From positions 1-30,123 of IMG/VR virus record IMGVR_UViG_3300017733_000030: a stretch of 30,123 nt of DNA, one strand, 5' to 3'. The position numbers were made by a program, and so were the translations under genes. The notes below the pieces were generated by a model. That model saw only the letters and a program-made list of their open reading frames with translations, was not told the origin of the DNA and ran no database searches. Source of the DNA: a virus. Of the stretch, positions 527 through 22,673 are shown piece after piece (position 1 is the stretch's first letter; every line of letters starts with the position of its first letter).

Positions 527-3038
527 CTATGATTACCTTATCAAAGTCTACAACATAGACTCTGCGTTGTTTACCCATATGAAATATGCGTTCTTTCTTA
601 GCGCCAAGATGATCTTCAAGCCACCTACCAAAAGCTGTATGTTTCTCAAAAGGTAACGGTAACTTAGGACCCCATGGAGCGTTCTGGATACGCATAAGTT
701 CTATGGTAGAGATAGCTAACTTGCCTTCTTCCTCTATTGCGTAGACGGCAGTTGTTTCTGTTTCGTACGCCCAACGTAGTAGTTCAAGTATAGGGTTTTC
801 GGTGTCAGCTATTGAAGCATCACGTAGTATTAGGTCCCATGACTTATCAGGTAGTTGCCATTTAATGTCATTATCTATTTGTAGATCGTGAACAAAGTGT
901 TGCAACAAGTTGTAACCATATTGTAACACTCTGTAGTTATTGAGCTGACGACCTGACACACTGTCATCAAGTTCGTAATTGTCAGGTAGTTTAACAGAGT
1001 TAGTTAAATAGTTTTTATGCAACCACTTAAGGTAGACGTAACTAATAGTGTCCTCGAAATCTAATGAACCTAATGCCTCAGAGTTCTTACCCTCCATGGG
1101 TATGTTCACAATTATGGAACGATCTATGTGAGACTTCTCAGATAAGGTATCTTCACCAGTAACTATGACGGGACTGTCAGTAAGTATTTGAGCTACTTCA
1201 GCACGGTTAGTATTGACAGCTCCTTTGGTAGATACCTGACCTGTGTAAGTATCACGAAGTAATTGGTCAAGGGTTTTCTTAGCGTCATCTCTAGCACCTG
1301 GCCGGTACTCATCAAACCATATGGGGAATCCATTGGATGCCATGAAGTGTGATGAGATAGCAAACGGTGTGGTAGTAGTTAGGTTAGATGAGATCATCGA
1401 ACCAGAGAAATGAAAGATCATAAGAGATGTCAATGTAGTTTTACCTGATCCGCTAGTACCAGACAGGTGCAGTATTGGATACTCTTTGAAGAGAGTACGT
1501 AAAGGTGCAGTAGCTAACCAGCACAACACAGGCATAGTAACCTCAGGTTTATGTAGCTCTACTAAAGACTTAAGTATGCGTAAAGCATGTGCTTCTTGCA
1601 CGTTTTCAGACAACATAACATTAGTTTTGTCTAGTTTTAAACCAGTTTCTTTTGGGAGATACTTCCATTCTTGATCTCCAATAGAACCAGTAGGCCACAC
1701 GAAGTCGCCCCTATGTAATCCTATTCTTGAAGTCATCCTTCCCACAGGTTTCATTGTAGCCTCATTAAGAAGGAAGGACCCTAATTTCTGAGCATCAGTA
1801 GTGTTACCAAAGAACTGTCTAGTATTACGCTGTGACCAATCAATAAGTTTTTGAACAGATCTAAATTCTGTAGAGGATATAGAAACATTCCTACCAGTAG
1901 GTAGAAGCTTGCCTTCTATAGCCCACGTATCAGAATCTTCACCTATTAAAAAACGAGTAATGTCAATAGCCCAGTTAGATATCTCAGTTCCCTGAGAACC
2001 ATCACTAGTTAACCTGCGATACAAGTTACCTATCTTTGTAATCTTCTGTCGCTCACCATACGGCATCTGCCAGTTATTAAACAAGTCACGAATGTCCTGC
2101 TCCTGCATGTCAGCAACATCTTTATTATCAGGCAATGGAGTTAAAGAAACATACGCTTCCTTTCGATGCAACCACTCAGCTACCTGAGCACGACCAGATG
2201 TGCCAGCGGCATCACCATCAAACACAATAGATATGTCACGTTCAAGCCACACATCATCATCGTAAACTCCTAGTATCTCCTGAATGTTTTGGTTAGCGCC
2301 AGGGAAACCAACAACAACATATTCATTACCATACAAATACTCCATAACCCAAGTATCTGATTCCCCTTCACACATGATGACAGGCCCGTCAACATATTCC
2401 AATCTACGCAAAGCATCTCGTGTCCCGTAAAGAGCCATTTTGGACCCTACACCCGCTCTTTTACCACCACTACGAGACAATGTTTTGTATCCAATGATAC
2501 TACTGTACTTATCATAGTACGGTGCAAACACCATCTCGTTTGGCATAACATGGATGCCGAACTCAGACCTAAGAAAACCTACCGGAGGCAGGCAAGGATG
2601 AGTTTTCTGATAGTGGAAATGCCATATACGAGCAGACCTGTCATCATGGCGAGGATTAGGCCAACGAAATTCACGACCCATTATCTCTGGAGTGGTGTAG
2701 TCAACTCCATTAGATAACTGGGTAGCGTACAACACACGAGCTAAATCAATAGCTTGTTGTGTACTCCAATCAGTTTTGAAACGTAAGATAAGATCAATAG
2801 AAGAACCTTGAAATCCTTCAGCGAAATCACCTACACGCCATTCGTTACGTTGATTGCGATAGACATCAAGAGAAGGATTCTTATCTTCCCGAAAGGGACT
2901 TGAATAAGATAACCTAATCTTGCCGACTATCTGAGGTTCGTGACCAAAGTAAGATAAGACGACAGCCGGATGTAGTTCTTTCCGCAGAGTTCTAGCGTTA
3001 GCTTGTTGTGCTACAGAGTTCGCTACATCCGGTGTCAT
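519..3038 (-). CDS. TOPRIM primase-helicase fusion protein
   Basis: The 839-residue protein probably primes replication and unwinds DNA. Residues 43-88 resemble the CHC2-type primase N-terminus (SSPFREDKNPSLDVY, then GDFAEGFQGSSIDLIL), but the zinc-binding Cys residues are absent. A TOPRIM domain follows, with the acidic Glu in IMCEGESD (about 224) and the DxD in IVFDGDAAG (about 274-276). The C-terminal ATPase has a Walker A, GTSGSGKT, at about 527-534 and a Walker B, PIWFDE, at about 572-577. This layout matches phage and plasmid primase-helicase (DUF927/D5-like) fusions, not the T7 gp4 RecA-type helicase. It lies 12 bases after the DUF669-like gene and overlaps the HTH gene. No DNA polymerase is visible nearby. 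Confidence 0.85.
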   Translation of the reverse strand: MTPDVANSVAQQANARTLRKELHPAVVLSYFGHEPQIVGKIRLSYSSPFREDKNPSLDVYRNQRNEWRVGDFAEGFQGSSIDLILRFKTDWSTQQAIDLARVLYATQLSNGVDYTTPEIMGREFRWPNPRHDDRSARIWHFHYQKTHPCLPPVGFLRSEFGIHVMPNEMVFAPYYDKYSSIIGYKTLSRSGGKRAGVGSKMALYGTRDALRRLEYVDGPVIMCEGESDTWVMEYLYGNEYVVVGFPGANQNIQEILGVYDDDVWLERDISIVFDGDAAGTSGRAQVAEWLHRKEAYVSLTPLPDNKDVADMQEQDIRDLFNNWQMPYGERQKITKIGNLYRRLTSDGSQGTEISNWAIDITRFLIGEDSDTWAIEGKLLPTGRNVSISSTEFRSVQKLIDWSQRNTRQFFGNTTDAQKLGSFLLNEATMKPVGRMTSRIGLHRGDFVWPTGSIGDQEWKYLPKETGLKLDKTNVMLSENVQEAHALRILKSLVELHKPEVTMPVLCWLATAPLRTLFKEYPILHLSGTSGSGKTTLTSLMIFHFSGSMISSNLTTTTPFAISSHFMASNGFPIWFDEYRPGARDDAKKTLDQLLRDTYTGQVSTKGAVNTNRAEVAQILTDSPVIVTGEDTLSEKSHIDRSIIVNIPMEGKNSEALGSLDFEDTISYVYLKWLHKNYLTNSVKLPDNYELDDSVSGRQLNNYRVLQYGYNLLQHFVHDLQIDNDIKWQLPDKSWDLILRDASIADTENPILELLRWAYETETTAVYAIEEEGKLAISTIELMRIQNAPWGPKLPLPFEKHTAFGRWLEDHLGAKKERIFHMGKQRRVYVVDFDKVIIDE

Positions 3039-3050
3039 TCCCTTATCCCC

Positions 3051-5613: not shown

Positions 5614-6372
5614 TTAAACAATGCCAGGGCGATAATCTTTTTCAGCAACACGCTGACGAGAAAAAGCACCGCATCCCTTACATTGATATTGAATATATGT
5701 CATAGTACGAGTACGTCTATAACCACGACGAATAACCTGCTTATGACCACACGTAGGACAACCATTCTTTTCGGTATACATATTCCAATTAGGATGATTG
5801 TTCATCCAAGGGCGTAACGCCATGTACACGTCGTACAATAAATTAATATCCTGCTTGTTGTACTTGACCATGGTTTTCCATGCCGCAGGATCACCTCGCA
5901 TACAGCCAGCCCACGTTTTAAAACCACCAGTGTCAGTCTTTACACCAATGTCTAAGTACTTACCTAAACTATTAAGATGATTAGTGGTGAACTTAAAATG
6001 TCTACGAGCTAGCTTGAGAGTATCAATAGAATTAACAGGAGATGCAGGACCAAGCCCATGTTTAACAAACCTGGCGTTAGCTTTTTTGTAATCAAAAGCA
6101 TCTCCATTATGAGCGACAATAACATCAGCTTCATCAAATAATTCATGCAGTTTCTTTACTACATGGAAATCATCTTCAGGATCTTTAGCATATGTCTTAG
6201 GGAAATCAGGAAGAGCACACGCATGTATAGTTTTCTGATGACCCCAACGCCAAGCAAAACAAAGGATGTACCACTCACGTTCATGAGCTATAACATCCTG
6301 TTGATAATGGCCCCACACATACGCCAAGTTAGGCGCAGTTTCAATGTCATAAAACAGAATCTTAGGTTCCAC
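5614..6372 (-). CDS. DnaQ-like 3'-5' exonuclease with C-terminal zinc ribbon
   Basis: The 252-residue protein begins with a GTG that shares its G with the stop of the preceding small gene (TAGTG). It carries the DEDDy exonuclease motifs: Asp9 and Glu11 in FYDIETAP, the ExoII region VIVAHNGDAFD at about 84-94, and YNKQD at 171-175. A zinc ribbon follows the nuclease fold (CPTC at 205-208 and CKGC at 231-234). DnaQ-family proteins degrade 3' ends during proofreading or recombination. As no polymerase is visible, this one may act on its own or with the host polymerase. The appended zinc ribbon probably binds DNA (inference). Confidence 0.8.
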   Translation of the reverse strand: MEPKILFYDIETAPNLAYVWGHYQQDVIAHEREWYILCFAWRWGHQKTIHACALPDFPKTYAKDPEDDFHVVKKLHELFDEADVIVAHNGDAFDYKKANARFVKHGLGPASPVNSIDTLKLARRHFKFTTNHLNSLGKYLDIGVKTDTGGFKTWAGCMRGDPAAWKTMVKYNKQDINLLYDVYMALRPWMNNHPNWNMYTEKNGCPTCGHKQVIRRGYRRTRTMTYIQYQCKGCGAFSRQRVAEKDYRPGIV

Positions 6373-6899: not shown

Positions 6900-8597
6900 T
6901 TATTTCCTTTCATTAGATAAAGCTTCAAAGTATTCTTCATACACCTTTATTTTATTAGACATATGCAAAGCAAGGTGCTCCTCTACAGTGTCTTCAGCTC
7001 GGAGGGATATAGCAGGGACAACATGAGTTGAACCTACCCTACGAACACGACCACGACATTGAATGAACTGTTGTAAGCTGGTTGGTTCCTGAGCGAACAC
7101 AAGCAAACCAGCGTTAGTAAGAGATACAGATTCAGACATCGTGCCACTAGTACAAACAAGAATCTTACGAGTCAGATCATTAACATCTTGAAAAGACCTA
7201 ATGATATGGTCCCTGGAGGCTTGCCTGGTATCACCAGTAATAATATTTACAAGAAATTTTTGAGGCAAACGCTCATCAAGCCCACGATAAATCATGCCAG
7301 CTACCTTAGAATGCTCACAAAATACAACAACATTACAATCAACATCTTCGAGTAGATCAATCATCGCATCAACCTTGGCAGAAGGAGTAGACAAACCCAT
7401 GACACGATTGGCGTCATTCAAAACAGGTCTACCATTAGCCCACTGTCTAAGCTTAGTGAACTTATCCAAATCATTTTTAGCGATAAGAATATTGTCATCC
7501 CAATCTGATATATAGGATTCCAACATTTGATCGTACCCTTTTCGCTGGAGTGTGTTCAAAGGAACCTTGATAACAGTATGCGGACCTTCTTCAGGTATCG
7601 TCATACCACGCATAGCATAAGCAACAGCTTTATCTCCGAACTGATTATGGGTAGTACGCCACCCACATATCTGAAGGTAATGTGTATGACCTGTTTCATT
7701 CCAACCAATACAATCTAAACCACCGTGCCAGTTCTCACGCATATTAAGAAAACGTTCACGCCAAGCAGTTAACGTAGGGAACTCTTTAGGTGCAAGGAAA
7801 CGCCATTGCGCCCACAAATCTTCGGGGTTACCAGTAGTAGGAGTAGCAGTTAACGCTATCCTTTTATCAGCATTACCAGCAAGAGTCCAACAACAACGAG
7901 TACGCAAAGCCTTAGGGCTTTTAATCCTATGTGATTCATCGATAATAACCGAGTTATATTCATGGAAATCAAGTTCCCCTGCCGGAAGCTTCTTACTATT
8001 AGGCCAATGCTTACAACTAACATGCTTAATAAGGTTATCGTAAGAGATAATAACAAAATTGACATCCTCAACATGCTTTAACCTAGTCTTTCGTTCCTTG
8101 GCATCACCAACAATAGTAATATAATCTGCGCCAGGGAACACAGTCTCGATCTCTTTAGTCCACACGGGTATAGCAACCTTCGGGCAGACAATAATATTAG
8201 GAGCTAACCTAAAATTATTATCCAAAGCACACAAAGCAGAACGAGTCTTACCTAAACCAGTGCCGTCGTTAATAAACAAAGACTTATTCTCACATCCAAC
8301 ATGGCCAAGCTTCTGACCTGTCCACCACTGATAACCAAACCATTCATCAGAGTTCTCAACAATACTTTTACGAGACTCCAATGACAAACGCTGATCACCC
8401 CATTGATGTATACGATCCACGCCCTCTTGATTAATTCTTTTCAAATCATAATGATCAGACAAACGAATATCCCAAGCAGAAAGATACGTATCAGGCAACG
8501 TAACATACTGACCTTCATGAGGAGTCTTAGTATATATACGCCAATCTTTTATATCAGGTCGGTATTCGACAATATCATTTTCCTTCAACTGGAACAT
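6900..8597 (-). CDS. SNF2/SF2 DNA helicase-translocase
   Basis: The 565-residue protein has SF2 motifs in order: Walker A DGTGLGKTRS at about 111-120, the DESH box (IIDESHRIKS) at about 218-227, motif III ALTATPTTG at about 248-256, and motif VI QCRGRVRRVG in the C-terminal half. These match SNF2-like helicases of phage replication modules, which remodel forks or displace proteins. The reading frame is open up to 8657, but the ATG at 8595-8597 (MFQLKEND) is preferred. It follows a GAAAGGGTGG stretch, avoids an odd hydrophobic N-terminus, and is overlapped by a coupled 54-aa ORF upstream. Confidence 0.85.
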   Translation of the reverse strand: MFQLKENDIVEYRPDIKDWRIYTKTPHEGQYVTLPDTYLSAWDIRLSDHYDLKRINQEGVDRIHQWGDQRLSLESRKSIVENSDEWFGYQWWTGQKLGHVGCENKSLFINDGTGLGKTRSALCALDNNFRLAPNIIVCPKVAIPVWTKEIETVFPGADYITIVGDAKERKTRLKHVEDVNFVIISYDNLIKHVSCKHWPNSKKLPAGELDFHEYNSVIIDESHRIKSPKALRTRCCWTLAGNADKRIALTATPTTGNPEDLWAQWRFLAPKEFPTLTAWRERFLNMRENWHGGLDCIGWNETGHTHYLQICGWRTTHNQFGDKAVAYAMRGMTIPEEGPHTVIKVPLNTLQRKGYDQMLESYISDWDDNILIAKNDLDKFTKLRQWANGRPVLNDANRVMGLSTPSAKVDAMIDLLEDVDCNVVVFCEHSKVAGMIYRGLDERLPQKFLVNIITGDTRQASRDHIIRSFQDVNDLTRKILVCTSGTMSESVSLTNAGLLVFAQEPTSLQQFIQCRGRVRRVGSTHVVPAISLRAEDTVEEHLALHMSNKIKVYEEYFEALSNERK

Positions 8598-9435: not shown

Positions 9436-10110
9436 GCGAATACCTGAAGCAATAGGGGACACCACCCTGATGTATCTGCGACGATACTCTGGGTTCCGGT
9501 GGGACATATGCGTCAAAGACTTGTACAGTACTTTGCATTGCCGGATACTAACCGCTAAGTTTTCACCATGCACAATGGGTAATTAACCCGTCCTTTGTTA
9601 CATTCCCCTATTACTTCCTTCGGAATCAGGGGACCGGAACACCTGACATGTCCAAGGCTCCTGCGTCTTGATCCGAAGCGATCTTAAATTTTAAATGTGA
9701 GTGTGGACCTACTCAATACCACTGAAATGTGGATTTACATGAGTAGATCTGCTGTCTGCACAGCCGGAGGAATATTCTCATATAGGACCATCCTCTCCAT
9801 CACTCAACTAGGCTCGCAGGTCATGTCACGTTGAGCGCAAGCTTGCGACTTTACCTGGGCCTAGAACTTTTAGAGCTGTTATTTAGTCTCTCCTTACCCA
9901 TCTGCGACGATTCTCAGGGCACTGGACACACGTGATTAAGTATACTTTCCAATCCTAAACACATTTAACCTATTAGGGCACTCTATGTCGCACAATTAGC
10001 TCGTTTACCAAGTCTACCTTGCACGACGATTTAAATGGCAGGGAAACGAAGGGAGACAACGCTCCCCTGCCAGCCGACGGGGAAATAGAAAGGTGTAACT
10101 AAACCCGCCG
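9436..10110 (-). ncRNA. Candidate giant structured non-coding RNA
   Basis: No ORF of 60 codons occurs here on either strand, and no ribosome binding site of the phage's usual type is seen. The stretch is packed with helices: 9493-9500 with 9633-9640 (extendable outwards to about 12 pairs with a bulge); 9604-9609 with 9628-9633 around a TTCC/GGAA hairpin; 9709-9715 with 9740-9746 around CCAC/GTGG; 9751-9755 with 9760-9764; 9808-9813 plus 9817-9821 with 9853-9857 plus 9859-9864 enclosing the palindrome at 9836-9847; 9954-9958 with 9973-9977; and 10037-10041 plus 10051-10055 with 10062-10071. Flanking genes are on the minus strand, and the minus-strand version has purine-rich linkers, so that strand is preferred. 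Size and phage setting resemble GOLLD or ROOL RNAs. Membership is not shown. Confidence 0.6.
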
Positions 10111-12582: not shown

Positions 12583-12621
12583 ATCTAACACTCCAAATAA
12601 TCGCTAGGGCTACTATCCTTG

Positions 12622-12775
12622 CATGGCTTACGAAGCTATGTGGGGAGCGTAGCTATGAACTTAAAAGACTCTCCATTGCGGAGTTGGAGAGCCTTACTAG
12701 AAAACTATGCGGAGAAAGCAACAAACCACATAGTTCTCTAGTAAAGGGGCAGAAGGATGGGGTGTCCTCCTGCCC
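12622..12775 (-). promoter_or_regulatory. Array of stable hairpins upstream of the lysozyme gene
   Basis: This 190-base gene-free gap holds four stems: 12747-12757 with 12765-12775; 12695-12709 with 12729-12743 (15 bp); 12669-12674 with 12686-12691; and two mutually exclusive hairpins, 12622-12629 with 12633-12640 or 12634-12640 with 12648-12654. In the first two stems the only mismatch is A.C on the plus strand and G.U on the minus strand, so they are built to fold as minus-strand RNA. The third is followed by UCUUUU on the minus strand. The array could be a leader or a small RNA. Confidence 0.55.
12663..12693 (-). terminator. Intrinsic terminator inside the hairpin array
   Basis: On the minus strand GGCTCTCC pairs with GGAGAGTC (8 bp with one G.U, loop of 11) and is followed directly by TTTT. 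It lies between the DUF669-like gene at 13.2 kb and the lysozyme gene, and would limit read-through from the upstream unit. Confidence 0.5.
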
Positions 12776-12783
12776 ACGATACA

Positions 12784-13245
12784 TCAGCTATCGCTGGATT
12801 CACGCTTGATCATACTCCACTCAAAACGAGGGAAGATACGACCATCAGTGCCTTCTTCATGATCCACTACATAGACAGAAGCCTCAGTGATGGATTCTAG
12901 GTCATCGGCTATAGCATTTAGGTCACCAGACTGAATAAGTTCAGTAGTTACGCCAAGTGCAATTAGTCGCTCAATAGTAATTCGAGTACCAGTAGTAGAT
13001 GAAGTAGAGAAGGTAAAGTTCTCAAAGTGAGCAATACCCTCAGCGCCATCAGTGGACACATTACTAAAGCCTAGAAGGATAGTAGGATTACCTGAACGAG
13101 ATTCTTTAACTCGTGCGAACTCAATGTTCACATAGAAGTCTGAATCAACATCAGGTACAATCTCCATATCTCCGCCACGGACATAACCGTCAGGCAGGTC
13201 AGAAGTATCCGACATAGCTTGGTTGATAAGGTTAGCAATATTCAT
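12784..13245 (-). CDS. DUF669-like putative ssDNA-binding protein (second copy type)
   Basis: The 153-residue acidic protein has the pattern GDMEIVPDVDSDFYVNIEFARVKESRSGNPTILLGF, then HFENFTFST and a helix, TIERLIALGV. This beta-strand/'GxPxIxLxF' layout with a following helix fits DUF669-type ssDNA-binding proteins. It does not align obviously with the other such protein at 3.05-3.47 kb. The ATG follows AAAGGATATTCCT. It ends 9 bases before a strong minus-strand hairpin. Identity is tentative. Confidence 0.45.
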   Translation of the reverse strand: MNIANLINQAMSDTSDLPDGYVRGGDMEIVPDVDSDFYVNIEFARVKESRSGNPTILLGFSNVSTDGAEGIAHFENFTFSTSSTTGTRITIERLIALGVTTELIQSGDLNAIADDLESITEASVYVVDHEEGTDGRIFPRFEWSMIKRESSDS

Positions 13246-13269
13246 AGGAATATCCTTTCATTATATTTT

Positions 13270-13458
13270 TTAAAACGGATCAAGTGCAGATACCTCTAAA
13301 GGCGCATCACACACAAGATCACTAAGCTGGGCTACCGACTTGATAACCCAACGAATTTGCGGACAATTCTCAATAGAATGATCCGAAGAATAATTAATAA
13401 ATGCACTACGACATTCATACAATGCAATAATTAGATTCATTACATCTTTGTCATTCAC
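13270..13458 (-). CDS. Hypothetical 62-aa protein
   Basis: This small protein has a helical N-terminal half (DVMNLIIALYECRSAFINY), then CPQIRWVIKSVAQLSDLVC. The ATG follows GAAAGGAAAATGTG. It lies between the SNase-like lipoprotein and the DUF669-like gene with short spacers, in one leftward unit. I do not recognise it. Confidence 0.55.
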   Translation of the reverse strand: MNDKDVMNLIIALYECRSAFINYSSDHSIENCPQIRWVIKSVAQLSDLVCDAPLEVSALDPF

Positions 13459-13964: not shown

Positions 13965-14846
13965 TCATGACCAGTCTTCCTCCATAAGCTTAGCTATGGA
14001 CAATTCCTCGTCAATGTCTTGATGGATACGGTTAGTCTCACGTTTCTTACCTTTGGAGGTAATTACTTTGCGAGTTTCTTTCTTGACATCTTTCGATTCG
14101 TCAATAAAGAAGTCATTTGTCAACTGATACAAGCCGGACTCAATCAACTTGGATTGAGTGTCATCGGTATCCCACAAGGTTTCGTCACGTGATTGCTTTT
14201 GGTTGCGATAAACACAAGCCATGTAATTCTGACTAAGCCTGACGAATACGTTGAGCCAGTGATCACCAGCAACAATGTTGCTGAAGCCAATAGGCTCAAA
14301 AACGTATTTATGTGGTCGACCTTGACGGTCCATCTTGATAGTGCCACTTCCAAGGTTATCGTAGAGTGGGTGGTTAAAAGCTTTGCCATCGTTCTCGTAA
14401 ATACGAGCAACAATGATTGCTTTGCCACGATACTCTGGAGCTTGACCACTGACAAAGTGCCAGTAGTCAATAACTCGTAACTGATAACCTAACAGAGTGC
14501 CAACAACTTCTGACATGTCGATAGTCTCGAAACTAACTGAGACTTGATCAATCCAGAAATTCTTGACGGGATCATCGTCAGTGAAGTTGCGATTGATAAG
14601 ACCATTGTTATCGTAATAACTCATGTCTTTACCAAGCTTATCAGCTTGCGTGACCCATGTTCTGCCGAACAATAAGCCTTTGTTTGACATCATCTCGTTA
14701 TAAGGACCATAACGTACAGGGTCGCCAGAGTCACGATCTGCAAAACCGTGAAGAGCTGACAACGATGCAATGACCTCTTGAGAGAAGTTAGCAAAAGCTT
14801 CGTCGGGTGGCGTTTCAGTTCCACCATCATATGTTTTATATACCAT
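13965..14846 (-). CDS. Unknown 293-aa protein
   Basis: This soluble protein has a mixed N-terminal half (YDGGTETPPDEAFANF, then FGRTWVTQADKLG), a beta-rich middle (WIDQVSVSFETIDMSEVVGTLLGYQLRVIDYW, KAIIVARIYEND, HWLNVFVRLSQNYM) and a charged C-terminus rich in Lys and Glu (DVKKETRKVITSKGKKRE). I do not recognise the family. It has its own terminator, a terminator upstream and a long structured leader, so it may be made as a separate, abundant transcript. The ATG follows AGAAAGGTAATAC. Confidence 0.6.
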   Translation of the reverse strand: MVYKTYDGGTETPPDEAFANFSQEVIASLSALHGFADRDSGDPVRYGPYNEMMSNKGLLFGRTWVTQADKLGKDMSYYDNNGLINRNFTDDDPVKNFWIDQVSVSFETIDMSEVVGTLLGYQLRVIDYWHFVSGQAPEYRGKAIIVARIYENDGKAFNHPLYDNLGSGTIKMDRQGRPHKYVFEPIGFSNIVAGDHWLNVFVRLSQNYMACVYRNQKQSRDETLWDTDDTQSKLIESGLYQLTNDFFIDESKDVKKETRKVITSKGKKRETNRIHQDIDEELSIAKLMEEDWS

Positions 14847-14873
14847 GTATTACCTTTCTATTGAATAGCCGTA

Positions 14874-14951
14874 CTGCAACGGCATGTGGGTTTGGAAACA
14901 GCGCCACCGGCTTGCCGGTATACTTGCGCCCAAACCCTTGCCGTTCCGCAG
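14874..14951 (-). promoter_or_regulatory. Long rod-shaped hairpin in the leader of the 293-aa gene
   Basis: Nested complementary blocks form a rod of about 27 bp: CTGC (14874-14877) with GCAG (14948-14951), AACGGC (14878-14883) with GCCGTT (14940-14945), GGGTTTGG (14888-14895) with CCAAACCC (14930-14937), GCGC (14901-14904) with GCGC (14926-14929), and ACCGG (14906-14910) with CCGGT (14915-14919), closed by a 4-base loop. It lies between the terminator at 14986-15011 and the ATG at 14846. A stabilising or regulatory 5' leader, or a processed small RNA, is likely. Confidence 0.6.
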
Positions 14952-14985
14952 GGGCTAATGTTAATGAATGTACACGGGTGTGTAC

Positions 14986-15011
14986 AAAAAAGGGAGGACC
15001 TAAGTCCTCCC
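14986..15011 (-). terminator. Intrinsic terminator
   Basis: On the minus strand GGGAGGAC-TTAG-GTCCTCCC is a perfect 8-bp stem followed by six Ts. It lies 8 bases after the stop of the 29-aa ORF, and on the plus strand no T run follows. Confidence 0.85.
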
Positions 15012-15018
15012 TCATCTG

Positions 15019-15108
15019 TCACGAACCGAGTTCGTGGTTATGAAAATGCTTACCGTACAGAAGCGAGAGCTTCACTACGGCAAGATGTCTTTTAATACGC
15101 TTAAGCAT
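15019..15108 (-). CDS. 29-aa basic peptide ORF or small RNA
   Basis: GGAGG lies 5 bases upstream of an ATG at 15106-15108, and the frame runs 29 codons (MLKRIKRHLAVVKL to HELGS) to a TGA at 15019-15021. The peptide is basic and could form an amphipathic helix. The same stretch also folds well: CCGTA/TACGG around GAAGC/GCTTC (15053-15080), and CACGAAC/GTTCGTG (15020-15036). It is enclosed by two intrinsic terminators. Either a tiny early protein or a small RNA would fit, and the strong Shine-Dalgarno favours translation. Confidence 0.4.
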   Translation of the reverse strand: MLKRIKRHLAVVKLSLLYGKHFHNHELGS

Positions 15109-15146
15109 ATTAACCTCCAATTGTTAAGCACACATTGTTATGTACG

Positions 15147-15173
15147 AAAAAGGGAGGAACCGAAGTCCCTCCC
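15147..15173 (-). terminator. Intrinsic terminator with UUCG tetraloop
   Basis: On the minus strand GGGAGGGAC-TTCG-GTTCCTCCC is a 9-bp stem with one G.U and a C(UUCG)G loop, followed by five Ts. It lies 7 bases after the stop of the 93-aa gene, so the first gene of the leftward arm can be made as a short monocistronic mRNA. Confidence 0.85.
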
Positions 15174-15180
15174 AAAATCG

Positions 15181-15462
15181 TTACCGACAGGAATCGTCGG
15201 CACGCTCAGCGCAACCGCAACGAACTGCTTCGTCACGACTAACAACTGCACCAATACATGTACAACTAACATGATCTGCGAACAGATCCAAGAAGTCATA
15301 CGCAATACCATCCACTACAGCGTGGTCGGCAAGTACAGGTCTAACCATGTTGCTTTCTCCTTTCTTACTTATTTCTTTACCTTTCCTTATTGCGCTAGCA
15401 AGGTCTAAACGTCCTTGCTTAGTCACAGGAAAAGGGTCTGACCGATATGGTAGACGTGGCAT
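15181..15462 (-). CDS. First leftward gene: small Cys-rich protein, two possible starts
   Basis: The frame encodes 93 residues from an ATG at 15460-15462, preceded by GAAAGGAAATTAGTT. A second, stronger ribosome binding site (AAGAAAGGAGAAAGCAAC) precedes an in-frame ATG at 15346-15348, which would give a 55-residue product (MVRPVLADHAVVDG onward). The C-terminal third has five Cys (CTC, CGC and a final C), suggesting metal binding. It is the first gene left of the divergent region and has its own terminator, as expected for an immediate-early or host-takeover protein (inference). I do not recognise the family. Confidence 0.5.
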   Translation of the reverse strand: MPRLPYRSDPFPVTKQGRLDLASAIRKGKEISKKGESNMVRPVLADHAVVDGIAYDFLDLFADHVSCTCIGAVVSRDEAVRCGCAERADDSCR

Positions 15463-15477
15463 AACTAATTTCCTTTC

Positions 15478-15483
15478 TATAAT
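15478..15483 (+). promoter_or_regulatory. Candidate rightward -10 box for the rod RNA
   Basis: A perfect TATAAT on the plus strand would place a start near 15490, just before the first strand of the nested rod at 15498. No good -35 is seen 16-18 bases upstream. It overlaps the leader of the leftward 93-aa gene. Confidence 0.3.
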
Positions 15484-15490
15484 GTTAAAC

Positions 15491-15765
15491 GTTAGGGCTA
15501 CACTTCACGACGGGCGTAACGAGTAGGCCACCACGTTGAGCCTTTTGGCTCTGATCAGGCGCTCCGCAGACACCGGCGATTTTGTCAAGTCGAACAGCCG
15601 TCTTACATGGCTTACTAAGTTCGACTTTACTAAATCGCCTACTCACAAGACAGACAACGTTGAACAGGAACAGAGTTACTAAAGGCCCCTCTGTGTCTGC
15701 GTATAATTGCGCCCAGACCAAAAGGCTCTGTGGTGGTCTGCGAAGTTACAGGGGGTGTAGTTGTG
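15491..15765 (+). ncRNA. Nested rod-like structured element at the divergence point
   Basis: Blocks pair in strict nested order: 15498-15503 with 15755-15760; 15516-15520 with 15745-15749; 15523-15534 with 15730-15741 (12 bp, two G.U only on the plus strand); 15538-15548 with 15718-15728 (11 bp); 15550-15553 with 15714-15717; 15558-15562 with 15709-15713; 15565-15573 with 15693-15701 (9 bp); 15575-15582 with 15632-15639; 15587-15595 with 15619-15627 (9 bp); 15596-15599 with 15609-15612. The wobble pairs would be A.C mismatches on the minus strand, so a plus-strand RNA is favoured. It could instead act as DNA (origin, cos/pac) between the two arms. No protein gene is evident. Confidence 0.6.
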
Positions 15766-15800
15766 TAAGTGTGGACCATCAGCATGGGTAACAGCACTCT

Positions 15801-15840: not shown

Positions 15841-15869
15841 TTGACGTTTTGTTTGTCCTGAAGTATGTT
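15841..15869 (+). promoter_or_regulatory. Rightward promoter driving a leaderless transcript
   Basis: A -35 TTGACG (15841-15846) is followed after exactly 17 bases by a -10 TATGTT (15864-15869). Seven bases later lies the ATG at 15877, so transcription would begin at or next to the start codon. No Shine-Dalgarno lies between. It is the first promoter of the rightward arm. Confidence 0.6.
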
Positions 15870-15876
15870 CTTGTTT

Positions 15877-16311
15877 ATGGCTACTGCTGATTTTGTTGAT
15901 AAGAATTTAAAATTTTGTAGGTATTGCCAGGAGTGGAAGTCTGAGTTTAAGGATAATCAGACGTATTGTGATGGTTGTTGGAAGGTGTATAAGCGTCGGC
16001 AGTATCATATTGCGAAGCATAAGACTCGTTTGATGGTTGCTCAGGGTGGTCGTTGTATGATTTGTGATGCGGATTTTGCGTATATGTCTTCTGGGAAGAT
16101 TCATGTGGATCATTTGCATGGTGATAGGTATTTGATTCGTGGTTTGTTGTGTTTGCATTGCAATTCGGTGTTGGGCCATTCCTTGGATCGCCCCGATATC
16201 TTGCGTAAGGCGGCGGATTATTTGGAGTCTACTGAGGCTCGCCCGTTGGAAGATATTTTAGAAGAGCTTGATCATAGCGAATCTGCGAGTAAACTAAAAG
16301 GTGTATTCTAG
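15877..16311 (+). CDS. HNH / recombination endonuclease VII-like nuclease
   Basis: The protein has 144 residues from the ATG at 15877. The frame is also open from an ATG at 15865, but that codon lies inside the -10 box. It has two CxxC pairs near the N-terminus (FCRYC, YCDGC). The endonuclease VII core follows: RCMIC, the HVDHLH catalytic block, then RGLLCLHCNSVLG. Family members cut branched DNA or nick at cos, and HNH genes beside terminases often take part in packaging. It stands just upstream of the terminase region, 12 bases before the next gene. Confidence 0.8.
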   Translation: MATADFVDKNLKFCRYCQEWKSEFKDNQTYCDGCWKVYKRRQYHIAKHKTRLMVAQGGRCMICDADFAYMSSGKIHVDHLHGDRYLIRGLLCLHCNSVLGHSLDRPDILRKAADYLESTEARPLEDILEELDHSESASKLKGVF

Positions 16312-21139: not shown

Positions 21140-21906
21140 TGGCAGATATAGAAAAGGAATTAAAAAAAGTAAGGGATGAAGCGGCTCAACGAAGAGTTGA
21201 GTTAGCTCCTTTTAAAAAAGCTTTTGAGTCTTTTGATGAGGAAGCTGTTGCTTGGTTGTTAGATACTATTTCGTTAATTAATGATAATCCTTATGAAGCT
21301 GGTGAGCGTTTTGCGACGTTAGCTGTTGGTAATATGGGTGAAGATGGCTTTACTGCTTGGGCTAAGGATATAGTTTTTGACGATAACGACAATACTGTTG
21401 CTAATACTACAAATATAGGAGAAAATAATAAAATGGAACCTACTGAATTAAAAGCTGAGTTAGAAGCGTTTGAAGAACGTTTGCTTGGTCAGATAAATCA
21501 AAATAAAGCTGAAACACAGGAGTTGCTTCAAGAGCAACAAAAGCGTGAACAGTTTCGTGAGATAACTACTATTGTCACTAATTTGGGTTATGAGCCTGAG
21601 TCTTGGCAAGGCAAGATGCTTATTCAAGTTGCTAGTGGCGAAGTTGATTCTAATATGCCTATTAATGAACGTTTGGCTAAGGCTCATGAAATAGTTTCTG
21701 AACGTTTAGGTACTGCTACTGAGGAATCTTCTGATTCTGTTAAAATAGGGAATGCTGAAGTTTCTAATGATCCTTTAAATGTTCCTGCTACTGGCGGTCA
21801 AGTAGGCGGTGGTGGAATACCTAACGCTGGAGAAAATGTTCCATTAAGTTTTACTGACGCTGATGACGCATTAATGACTCTTCTTAAATCAGAGATAGGT
21901 CAATAA
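21139..21906 (+). CDS. Putative scaffolding protein with an internal start
   Basis: The 255-residue acidic protein is mostly helical with a Gln/Glu-rich coiled coil (EELKAELEAFEERLLGQINQNKAETQELLQEQ region, about residues 103-140), as expected of phage scaffolds encoded after the portal. An in-frame ATG at 21433 (MEPTELKAEL), with GGAG about 11 bases upstream, could give a shorter C-terminal form, like lambda Nu3 within C. The long gap to the capsid gene, filled by the lysis cassette, is unusual. Confidence 0.65.
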   Translation: MADIEKELKKVRDEAAQRRVELAPFKKAFESFDEEAVAWLLDTISLINDNPYEAGERFATLAVGNMGEDGFTAWAKDIVFDDNDNTVANTTNIGENNKMEPTELKAELEAFEERLLGQINQNKAETQELLQEQQKREQFREITTIVTNLGYEPESWQGKMLIQVASGEVDSNMPINERLAKAHEIVSERLGTATEESSDSVKIGNAEVSNDPLNVPATGGQVGGGGIPNAGENVPLSFTDADDALMTLLKSEIGQ

Positions 21907-22673
21907 TGGCTATACCTACTTCTAGTAAATGGGTACGTCTTAACGAATTGCATCCTAAAATGAAATATCGTTTAGAAAAGTTTTTTGCTGATCCACGTAT
22001 TAAAGGTAAGGTTGTTGTTAGTTCTGGTGTTAGGACTTATGCACAGCAAAAAGATTTGTATCGACGGTATAAAGCAGGAACGTTCCCGAACCTTGTAGCG
22101 AACCCAGATCGCAAATTTGGCGGTGGTTTCCAGGGTTCTTGGCACATGCAACAGCCTAGTCATCCTGAGGGGAATTATGGTTTTGCTGTTGATTTTCGTA
22201 TTGTTGGTAGGATATCCACAGGGGATGTGAATAAAGTAGCTAGAGAGTATGGGATGGAAAAGACTGTTCCTTCTGAGTGGTGGCATCATCAAGCGTACGG
22301 GTATCGGTATGATACGCAAAAGTATGATTGGTATGATGCTCCTGCTTTGTCTAGTGACGACGAAAAGAAAGCTGAAGTAGGTGCTACTGTTTTAGCTAAG
22401 ACTCAAAATCGTGGGGCTTTTGCTGAAATAGCTTCTGCTATGAAAACTACATTACGTAGAAATGCTAAAGGTCCTGCTGTTAAATTAATGCAGTCAAGGT
22501 TAGCTAATTTAGGTTATCGTTTAACTAAATATCCTTCAGCTCGAACAGGTATTGACGGACATTTTGGTTGGTATACACTTAGAGCGTTAAAACAATTTCA
22601 AAAGAAAAAAGGTCTTGTTGCCGATGGCATATGTGGACCTAACACATGGAAGGCGTTAATGAAGAATGGGTAA
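21906..22673 (+). CDS. Endolysin: M15 peptidase with peptidoglycan-binding domain
   Basis: The 255-residue protein has an N-terminal VanY/M15-type zinc peptidase: VSSGVRTYAQQKDLYRRY, the first ligands SHPEGNYGFAVDF (His86 and Asp96), and EWWHHQ with the third His (127/128). The C-terminal PG-binding repeat spans about residues 185-253 (GPAVKLMQSRLANLGYRL, then FGWYTLRALKQFQ). It cuts peptide stems at lysis. There is no signal peptide, so export depends on the holins that follow. It overlaps the holin by 8 bases. Confidence 0.9.
   Translation: MAIPTSSKWVRLNELHPKMKYRLEKFFADPRIKGKVVVSSGVRTYAQQKDLYRRYKAGTFPNLVANPDRKFGGGFQGSWHMQQPSHPEGNYGFAVDFRIVGRISTGDVNKVAREYGMEKTVPSEWWHHQAYGYRYDTQKYDWYDAPALSSDDEKKAEVGATVLAKTQNRGAFAEIASAMKTTLRRNAKGPAVKLMQSRLANLGYRLTKYPSARTGIDGHFGWYTLRALKQFQKKKGLVADGICGPNTWKALMKNG

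Follow-up and report, generated by a model that had tools for sequence, protein, structure and literature searches.

Where the two gene arms of a phage diverge, a stretch of some 260 nucleotides can fold back on itself into a long rod, which raises the question of what kind of molecule, RNA or DNA, would be kept in that shape and for what. The window, that is, the whole stretch of DNA analysed, is a linear IMG/VR record of 30,123 bases. To the left of about 15.5 kb its genes read leftward and include small ORFans, recombination genes, a primase/helicase gene and, outermost, a small-terminase-like gene; to the right they read rightward and encode endonuclease VII, terminase, portal, capsid and structural proteins. 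No tRNA gene was found in the window. The host may be an actinobacterium, since phages of Arthrobacter and Cellulosimicrobium have capsid proteins about 30% identical to the one encoded here. Every full-length relative examined has the small-terminase-like gene (95-526 in the window) apart from the large terminase gene and opposed to it. In the nearest relative, G001 (29028-37808), and at the same place in G002, G003 and G004, the last gene of the right arm is a giant one of about 2000-3700 codons, which runs head-on into the small terminase gene.

A nested rod at the head of the right arm

An initial annotation, made from the letters of the window, had described ten blocks pairing in nested order over 263 nt at 15498-15760, and folding bears the rod out: the plus strand of this segment reaches -115.7 kcal/mol with about 90 nested pairs, compared with a mean of -75.9 (sd 4.7) for shuffled sequences, none of 200 of which is as stable (z -8.4). 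The minus strand, folded in the same comparison of both strands that the annotation had proposed, is weaker (-104.9 kcal/mol, z -5.4), and no other part of the window folds as stably on the plus strand when scanned in 260-nt steps of sequence. The 263-nt extent is right for the core, while the structured domain is slightly longer, and the long side loop is present in the centroid structure where it had been predicted. The parts of the domain are as follows.

15496-15777, plus strand: putative rod RNA domain, 282 nt, 99 pairs, -126.8 kcal/mol, containing the 15498-15760 core
15498-15537, plus strand: 5' strand of the basal helices, partner at about 15725-15760; almost invariant in G001
15538-15551, plus strand: local hairpin GAGCC-TTTT-GGCTC, in which G001 has a compensatory G-C in place of C-G
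15575-15639, plus strand: apical rod, arms 15575-15595 and 15619-15639, with an A-T to C-G compensatory change in G001
15640-15692, plus strand: side loop and remodelled region, with frame-breaking indels relative to G001

The middle of the rod is rebuilt in the nearest relative

Only one relative can be aligned over the rod: G001, a contig of 44003 bases whose terminase is 98% identical. Its gene map is that of the window, the arms diverging once, at the rod, and converging once; both contig ends fall inside one gene, so that G001 looks like a complete, circularly permuted genome. Between the two rods there are indels of 2, 2 and 8 nt, and because these break the frame, the small open frames that cross the rod are not genes and a coding function for it is ruled out.

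When the pairs of the window rod are followed into G001, 62 are unchanged, six survive a one-sided and three a two-sided change, ten are broken and nine fall in gaps. The changes cluster in the middle of the rod, while base and apex are kept; on this alignment, the middle is rebuilt in G001, not conserved. The ten-block pairing thus stands in its basal and apical helices, which hold in G001, and fails in its middle blocks. At 15538-15551 the long-range pairing first assigned to these bases is broken in G001, where the sequence reads GAGGC-TTTT-GCCTC; since this change is compensatory within a local hairpin, the hairpin is favoured over the long-range pairing. Covariation, the check that the annotation had called for, consequently yields compensatory changes against the one alignable relative, alongside the ten pairs that are lost.

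Rods without sequence similarity in other lineages

Five further lineages, from samples that we take to be marine from their IMG identifiers, were examined: G002, G003 (with the near-identical G005), G004, G006 and G007. Their endonuclease VII proteins are 83-86% identical to that of the window, and the gaps before these genes fold at z -8 to -13. The rods measure 250-360 nt with about 98-142 base pairs, and across the six genomes beyond the window they have z-scores of -5.4 to -13.3. Apart from a hairpin at the primase/helicase start (see below), the endonuclease VII gap holds the strongest fold of the entire genome in G002, G003, G004 and G007, and across these lineages no other site is structured as consistently. 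Relative to the endonuclease VII start, the rod lies at -381..-100 in the window (99 pairs), at -338..-89 in G006 (98 pairs) and at -347..-86 in L006, which carries the same rod as G007 (108 pairs); those of G002 and G003 are 357-358 nt long, with 142 and 138 pairs, lie at -662..-305 and are accompanied by a second structured domain, and the G004 gap is a run of hairpin domains.

Other than between the window and G001, no sequence similarity between the rods of different lineages was detected by blastn at E 0.05. On the reading preferred below, selection keeps position, size, stability and rod shape, while the sequence turns over almost completely next to flanking proteins that remain about 85% identical.

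Further searches added no members. Rod DNA had no match in phage records; a pattern search of IMG/VR for AGCACTC plus the promoter motif described below returned nine contigs, none of them new; a terminase alignment search found no further relatives of the clade; and a search of genome collections gave no informative provirus, with a single match at 30%. In the distant terminase relatives that were scanned (31-46% identity), no comparable rod precedes the terminase; structure there is moderate, and the terminators are of the ordinary kind.

The direction of wobble mismatches points to rightward RNA

The initial annotation had noted that two wobbles in one of its blocks are G.U pairs only if the plus strand is RNA. 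To read this signal more widely, each region was folded with Watson-Crick pairs only, and the single mismatches inside helices were counted; double-stranded DNA hairpins should give G.T and A.C mismatches equally. Over the seven genomes the rightward strand carries 20 G.T mismatches and one A.C, against 258:211 in shuffles (p 6e-5); a count within the rod boundaries gives 24:2, although these boundaries were drawn from plus-strand folds and the count is hence not independent. In structured elements of the left arm the ratio is reversed (two G.T to eight A.C), as expected if those elements are transcribed leftward. The energy difference between plus and minus strands exceeds the shuffle mean in all seven genomes, strongly so in the window and G007, a purine excess of the plus strand accounting for part of it in G002, G004 and G006.

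The 20:1 bias therefore implies that the selected molecule is single-stranded and rightward. It is most likely RNA; single-stranded DNA also tolerates G.T and would give some of the same bias. Together with the left-arm reversal and the compensatory change in G001, the bias agrees with the annotation's reading of the rod as plus-strand RNA.

A conserved flank and a separate promoter

Sequence conservation resumes directly 3' of the rod. The gene that follows, which had been taken for an HNH gene, is in fact that of recombination endonuclease VII, and the elements flanking the rod are listed here.

15181-15462, minus strand: first left-arm gene, a small ORFan that reads away from the rod
15478-15483, plus strand: TATAAT, a possible -10 of a rod transcript, kept in G001, without a conserved -35
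15791-15800, plus strand: conserved ACAGCACTCT element, which contains AGCACTC, directly 3' of the rod
15841-15869, plus strand: endonuclease VII promoter (TTGACG, 17 nt, TATGTT), with CCTGAAGTATGTTCT invariant in eight relatives
15877-16311, plus strand: endonuclease VII gene, the first of the right arm (PF02945, E 1.4e-17)

In all close lineages ACAGCACTCT, with one base changed in G006, stands 56-58 nt before the CTGAAGTATG motif of the promoter, and the motif CTGAAGTATGTTCT found at this distance contains the -10 of the endonuclease VII promoter; CAGCACTC is present also in L018, whose terminase is 60% identical. A hairpin at AGCACTC pairs weakly in the window and G001 and was not accepted as a proven conserved stem, so that AGCACTC is kept as a sequence element only. 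The endonuclease VII start codon follows the -10 box by 6-7 nt, an arrangement (15841-15879) conserved in eight relatives, and because of this short distance the gene is probably translated from a leaderless messenger. Given this promoter and leaderless start, the rod is more likely a transcript of its own than the leader of the endonuclease VII gene, read-through being possible. The TATAAT is located where the initial annotation had placed it; no clear promoter with a -35 was found upstream of the rod and no intrinsic terminator downstream. In G001 a small gene and its terminator lie between the TATAAT and the next left-arm gene.

Other structured elements

Two structured elements in gaps of the left arm share short motifs with the rod.

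12598-12790, minus strand: structured intergenic element A, left-arm orientation favoured, with TARRCGYTAGGGCTAC and CTTRCATGGCTTACNAAG in common with the rod
14846-14965, minus strand: structured intergenic element B, left-arm orientation favoured, with GTATAMTTGCGCCCARACC in common with the rod

A further motif, GGCTTACNAA, occurs in left-arm gaps. With few exceptions it is on the right-arm strand, and in some cases a left-arm start codon follows at about 18 nt (window 12618-12635 and 15602-15619; G002 97, 39499 and 43477; G003 19301 and 22064; G004 8581, 10977 and 12221). It is not claimed as a promoter element, for despite its recurrence the -10 that follows is usually poor. Small-gene cassettes of the left arm carry a terminator and a GTACAC-N6-GTGTAC palindrome (window 14972-15173; G001 about 9787-10060), and G001 has one extra small gene with a terminator inserted right behind the left border of the rod.

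In the primase/helicase messenger a long hairpin encloses both the ribosome-binding site and the start codon (window about 2950-3050, minus strand; coding-strand z -4.3), and strong coding-strand folds occur at the same start in G002 (5841-6100), G003 (13041-13300), G004 (21601-21940) and G007 (7441-7780), which suggests translational control.

Among cultured phages, those of Jasminevirus have some 690 nt of unannotated sequence between an Lsr2 gene and gp57, a gap that is full of CTATCC-type hairpins and folds at z -7 to -8; in the Arthrobacter phage Jasmine (L130) it spans 45072-45765, and Adat, Brad and Casserole have a counterpart. Twelve of its pairs show double changes among the four phages, and its strand signal is weak. 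This gap may be comparable to the rod region, homology being only a candidate explanation. The divergence gaps of Jasmine and of Cellulosimicrobium phage DS1 (L131) are unstructured, and DS1 has a structured left-arm intergenic region at 33292-33670 (z -5.1).

Interpretation

The explanation that we consider best, and to which we give an even chance, is that the rods form a new family of RNAs selected for their shape, transcribed separately or as a leader where the right arm begins, and presenting a double-stranded RNA surface to a protein that reads shape. It builds on what was computed at the locus, namely the fold, its excess over chance, its strand, its recurrence in seven genomes and the compensatory changes in G001. 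The product would be a noncoding rightward RNA, a rod of about 100 base pairs, whose transcription we infer and which could be separate or part of a leader. By analogy, a shape-reading role is probable: the rod would offer a long imperfect double-stranded RNA surface to a partner, which might be a phage protein or, on the host side, a nuclease for double-stranded RNA or a defence sensor of the nucleotide-cyclase type, and would occupy or divert it, as adenovirus VA RNA does its sensor. Fast sequence turnover could then reflect freedom from sequence constraint, an arms race or both. The stronger proposal, that this is a class of RNA kept for rod shape alone, with a sequence turnover so rapid that nothing is shared even between close relatives and a shape-reading host protein as the probable source of pressure, we advance tentatively, as a possibility that falls short of even.

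That the rod instead acts in cis, as the 5' leader of the right-arm transcript, mediating antitermination or insulating and protecting the late messenger, is rather unlikely. In its favour, the rod points along the right arm and immediately precedes the first gene there, and what is conserved, AGCACTC and the promoter motif alone, is found between the two at a spacing that hardly varies. However, that gene has a strong, invariant promoter of its own after the rod, from which the messenger would begin at the start codon, and known leaders of such a sort keep sequence motifs, which the rods do not. A role as DNA, with a cruciform or single-stranded hairpin serving as origin, packaging signal or substrate of endonuclease VII, we regard as improbable. 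Endonuclease VII is a branched-DNA enzyme, and its gene adjoins the rod at the point where the arms diverge; the DNA folds are also stable (z -6.9 and -6.2), and base composition changes sign at the rod. Yet the 20:1 wobble asymmetry is unexpected for double-stranded cruciforms, and composition skew follows gene direction at every gene, so that it marks no origin and was rejected as proof of one; no iteron array was seen in the rod, and a replication origin here is possible, though not indicated. The cos or pac signal that the initial annotation had entertained finds no counterpart in genome ends: G001 runs through the rod, the small terminase gene is remote from it, at the outer end of the left arm, and the ends of nine contigs (eight of the close clade and L018) are spread over about 760 bases, between -614 and +148 relative to the start of endonuclease VII, a pattern more suggestive of strain variation at the site or of failed assembly at hairpins than of a fixed genome end.

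The same cluster of about nine contig ends is what a hypervariable or hairpin-rich region would produce, and it fits, with similarly low probability, a neutral origin in which template-switch palindromes arise and decay without function in a recombination-prone gap, the strand bias being mutational. Many perfect hairpins of unrelated sequence, clearest in G004, and the short motifs common to A, B and the rod, which suggest mixing, are in line with it. Plus-strand C-to-T decay would, however, leave T in excess of A, whereas A exceeds T in most rods, and unrelated sequences of similar position and size, compensatory changes and a wobble bias that matches orientation in the left-arm elements all speak against neutrality. 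A further suggestion of the initial annotation, a 6S-like RNA that would imitate an open promoter and bind host RNA polymerase, appears highly improbable. 6S RNA is rod-shaped and weakly constrained in sequence, and the rod matches it in these respects and in size class; on the other side, no 6S covariance model matches at the gathering threshold or at E up to 1, and the rods of G006 and L006 have only small internal loops in place of the central bubble, which is hence not consistent among rods.

If the rods are RNAs selected for shape, they bear on how such molecules are found. RNA families are normally found through conserved sequence or through covariation within an alignment; an RNA kept by shape alone would escape both, and here the fixed gene neighbourhood exposes it. 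The direction of wobble mismatches serves as a strand test that can be applied without an alignment, and its sign was reversed in elements of the opposite orientation. If expressed, the rod could be a decoy or a trigger where bacteria sense double-stranded RNA, for which, to our knowledge, few phage RNAs are known, and cultured Arthrobacter phages, with their comparable region, may offer a way to test this.

Comparison with known RNAs

Rfam returned no credible family at gathering or relaxed thresholds (E up to 1), its one match being a chance hit to a microRNA (E 0.76). HEARO, the omega RNA of IscB, was rejected because the adjoining nuclease is endonuclease VII, and no Rfam match supports it. 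The packaging RNA (pRNA) of phi29-type phages has a defined shape and divergent sequences, but the rod has no Rfam match and its phage carries an ordinary large terminase as well as the small-terminase-like gene. The early regions of T4 contain mobile cassettes of promoters and stem-loops, and the left-arm intergenic cassettes here resemble them in having stem-loops and repeated motifs and in that small genes are exchanged where cassettes meet; the left arm has repeated terminators and short shared motifs, while the rod itself is not a repeated cassette and differs in being far larger, in its orientation with the right arm and in that cassette sequence is not kept. Adenovirus VA RNA is a short viral rod in which shape outweighs sequence and which occupies a double-stranded-RNA sensor; since virus and sensor are eukaryotic, the analogy is one of working principle only.

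Two large noncoding RNAs of phages, GOLLD and ROOL, have an elaborate fold and an unknown function; they keep a covariance model and often lie near tRNA genes (PMC12286853). The rod, too, is predicted to be a folded noncoding phage RNA, but it lacks an Rfam match, stands in a window without tRNA genes and is not conserved in sequence between close relatives. The cabRNA of staphylococcal phages, discovered as a trigger of host defence that activates a CD-NTase, comes from the terminase region and has extensive double-stranded structure, and the cabRNAs of different phages share no sequence, although all are predicted to form hairpins (PMC10686824). It differs in lying inside the terminase coding region, whereas the rod occupies a dedicated noncoding gap before endonuclease VII; being likewise near the terminase genes, double-stranded and unshared in sequence between phages, the rod has in cabRNA its closest published parallel in behaviour.
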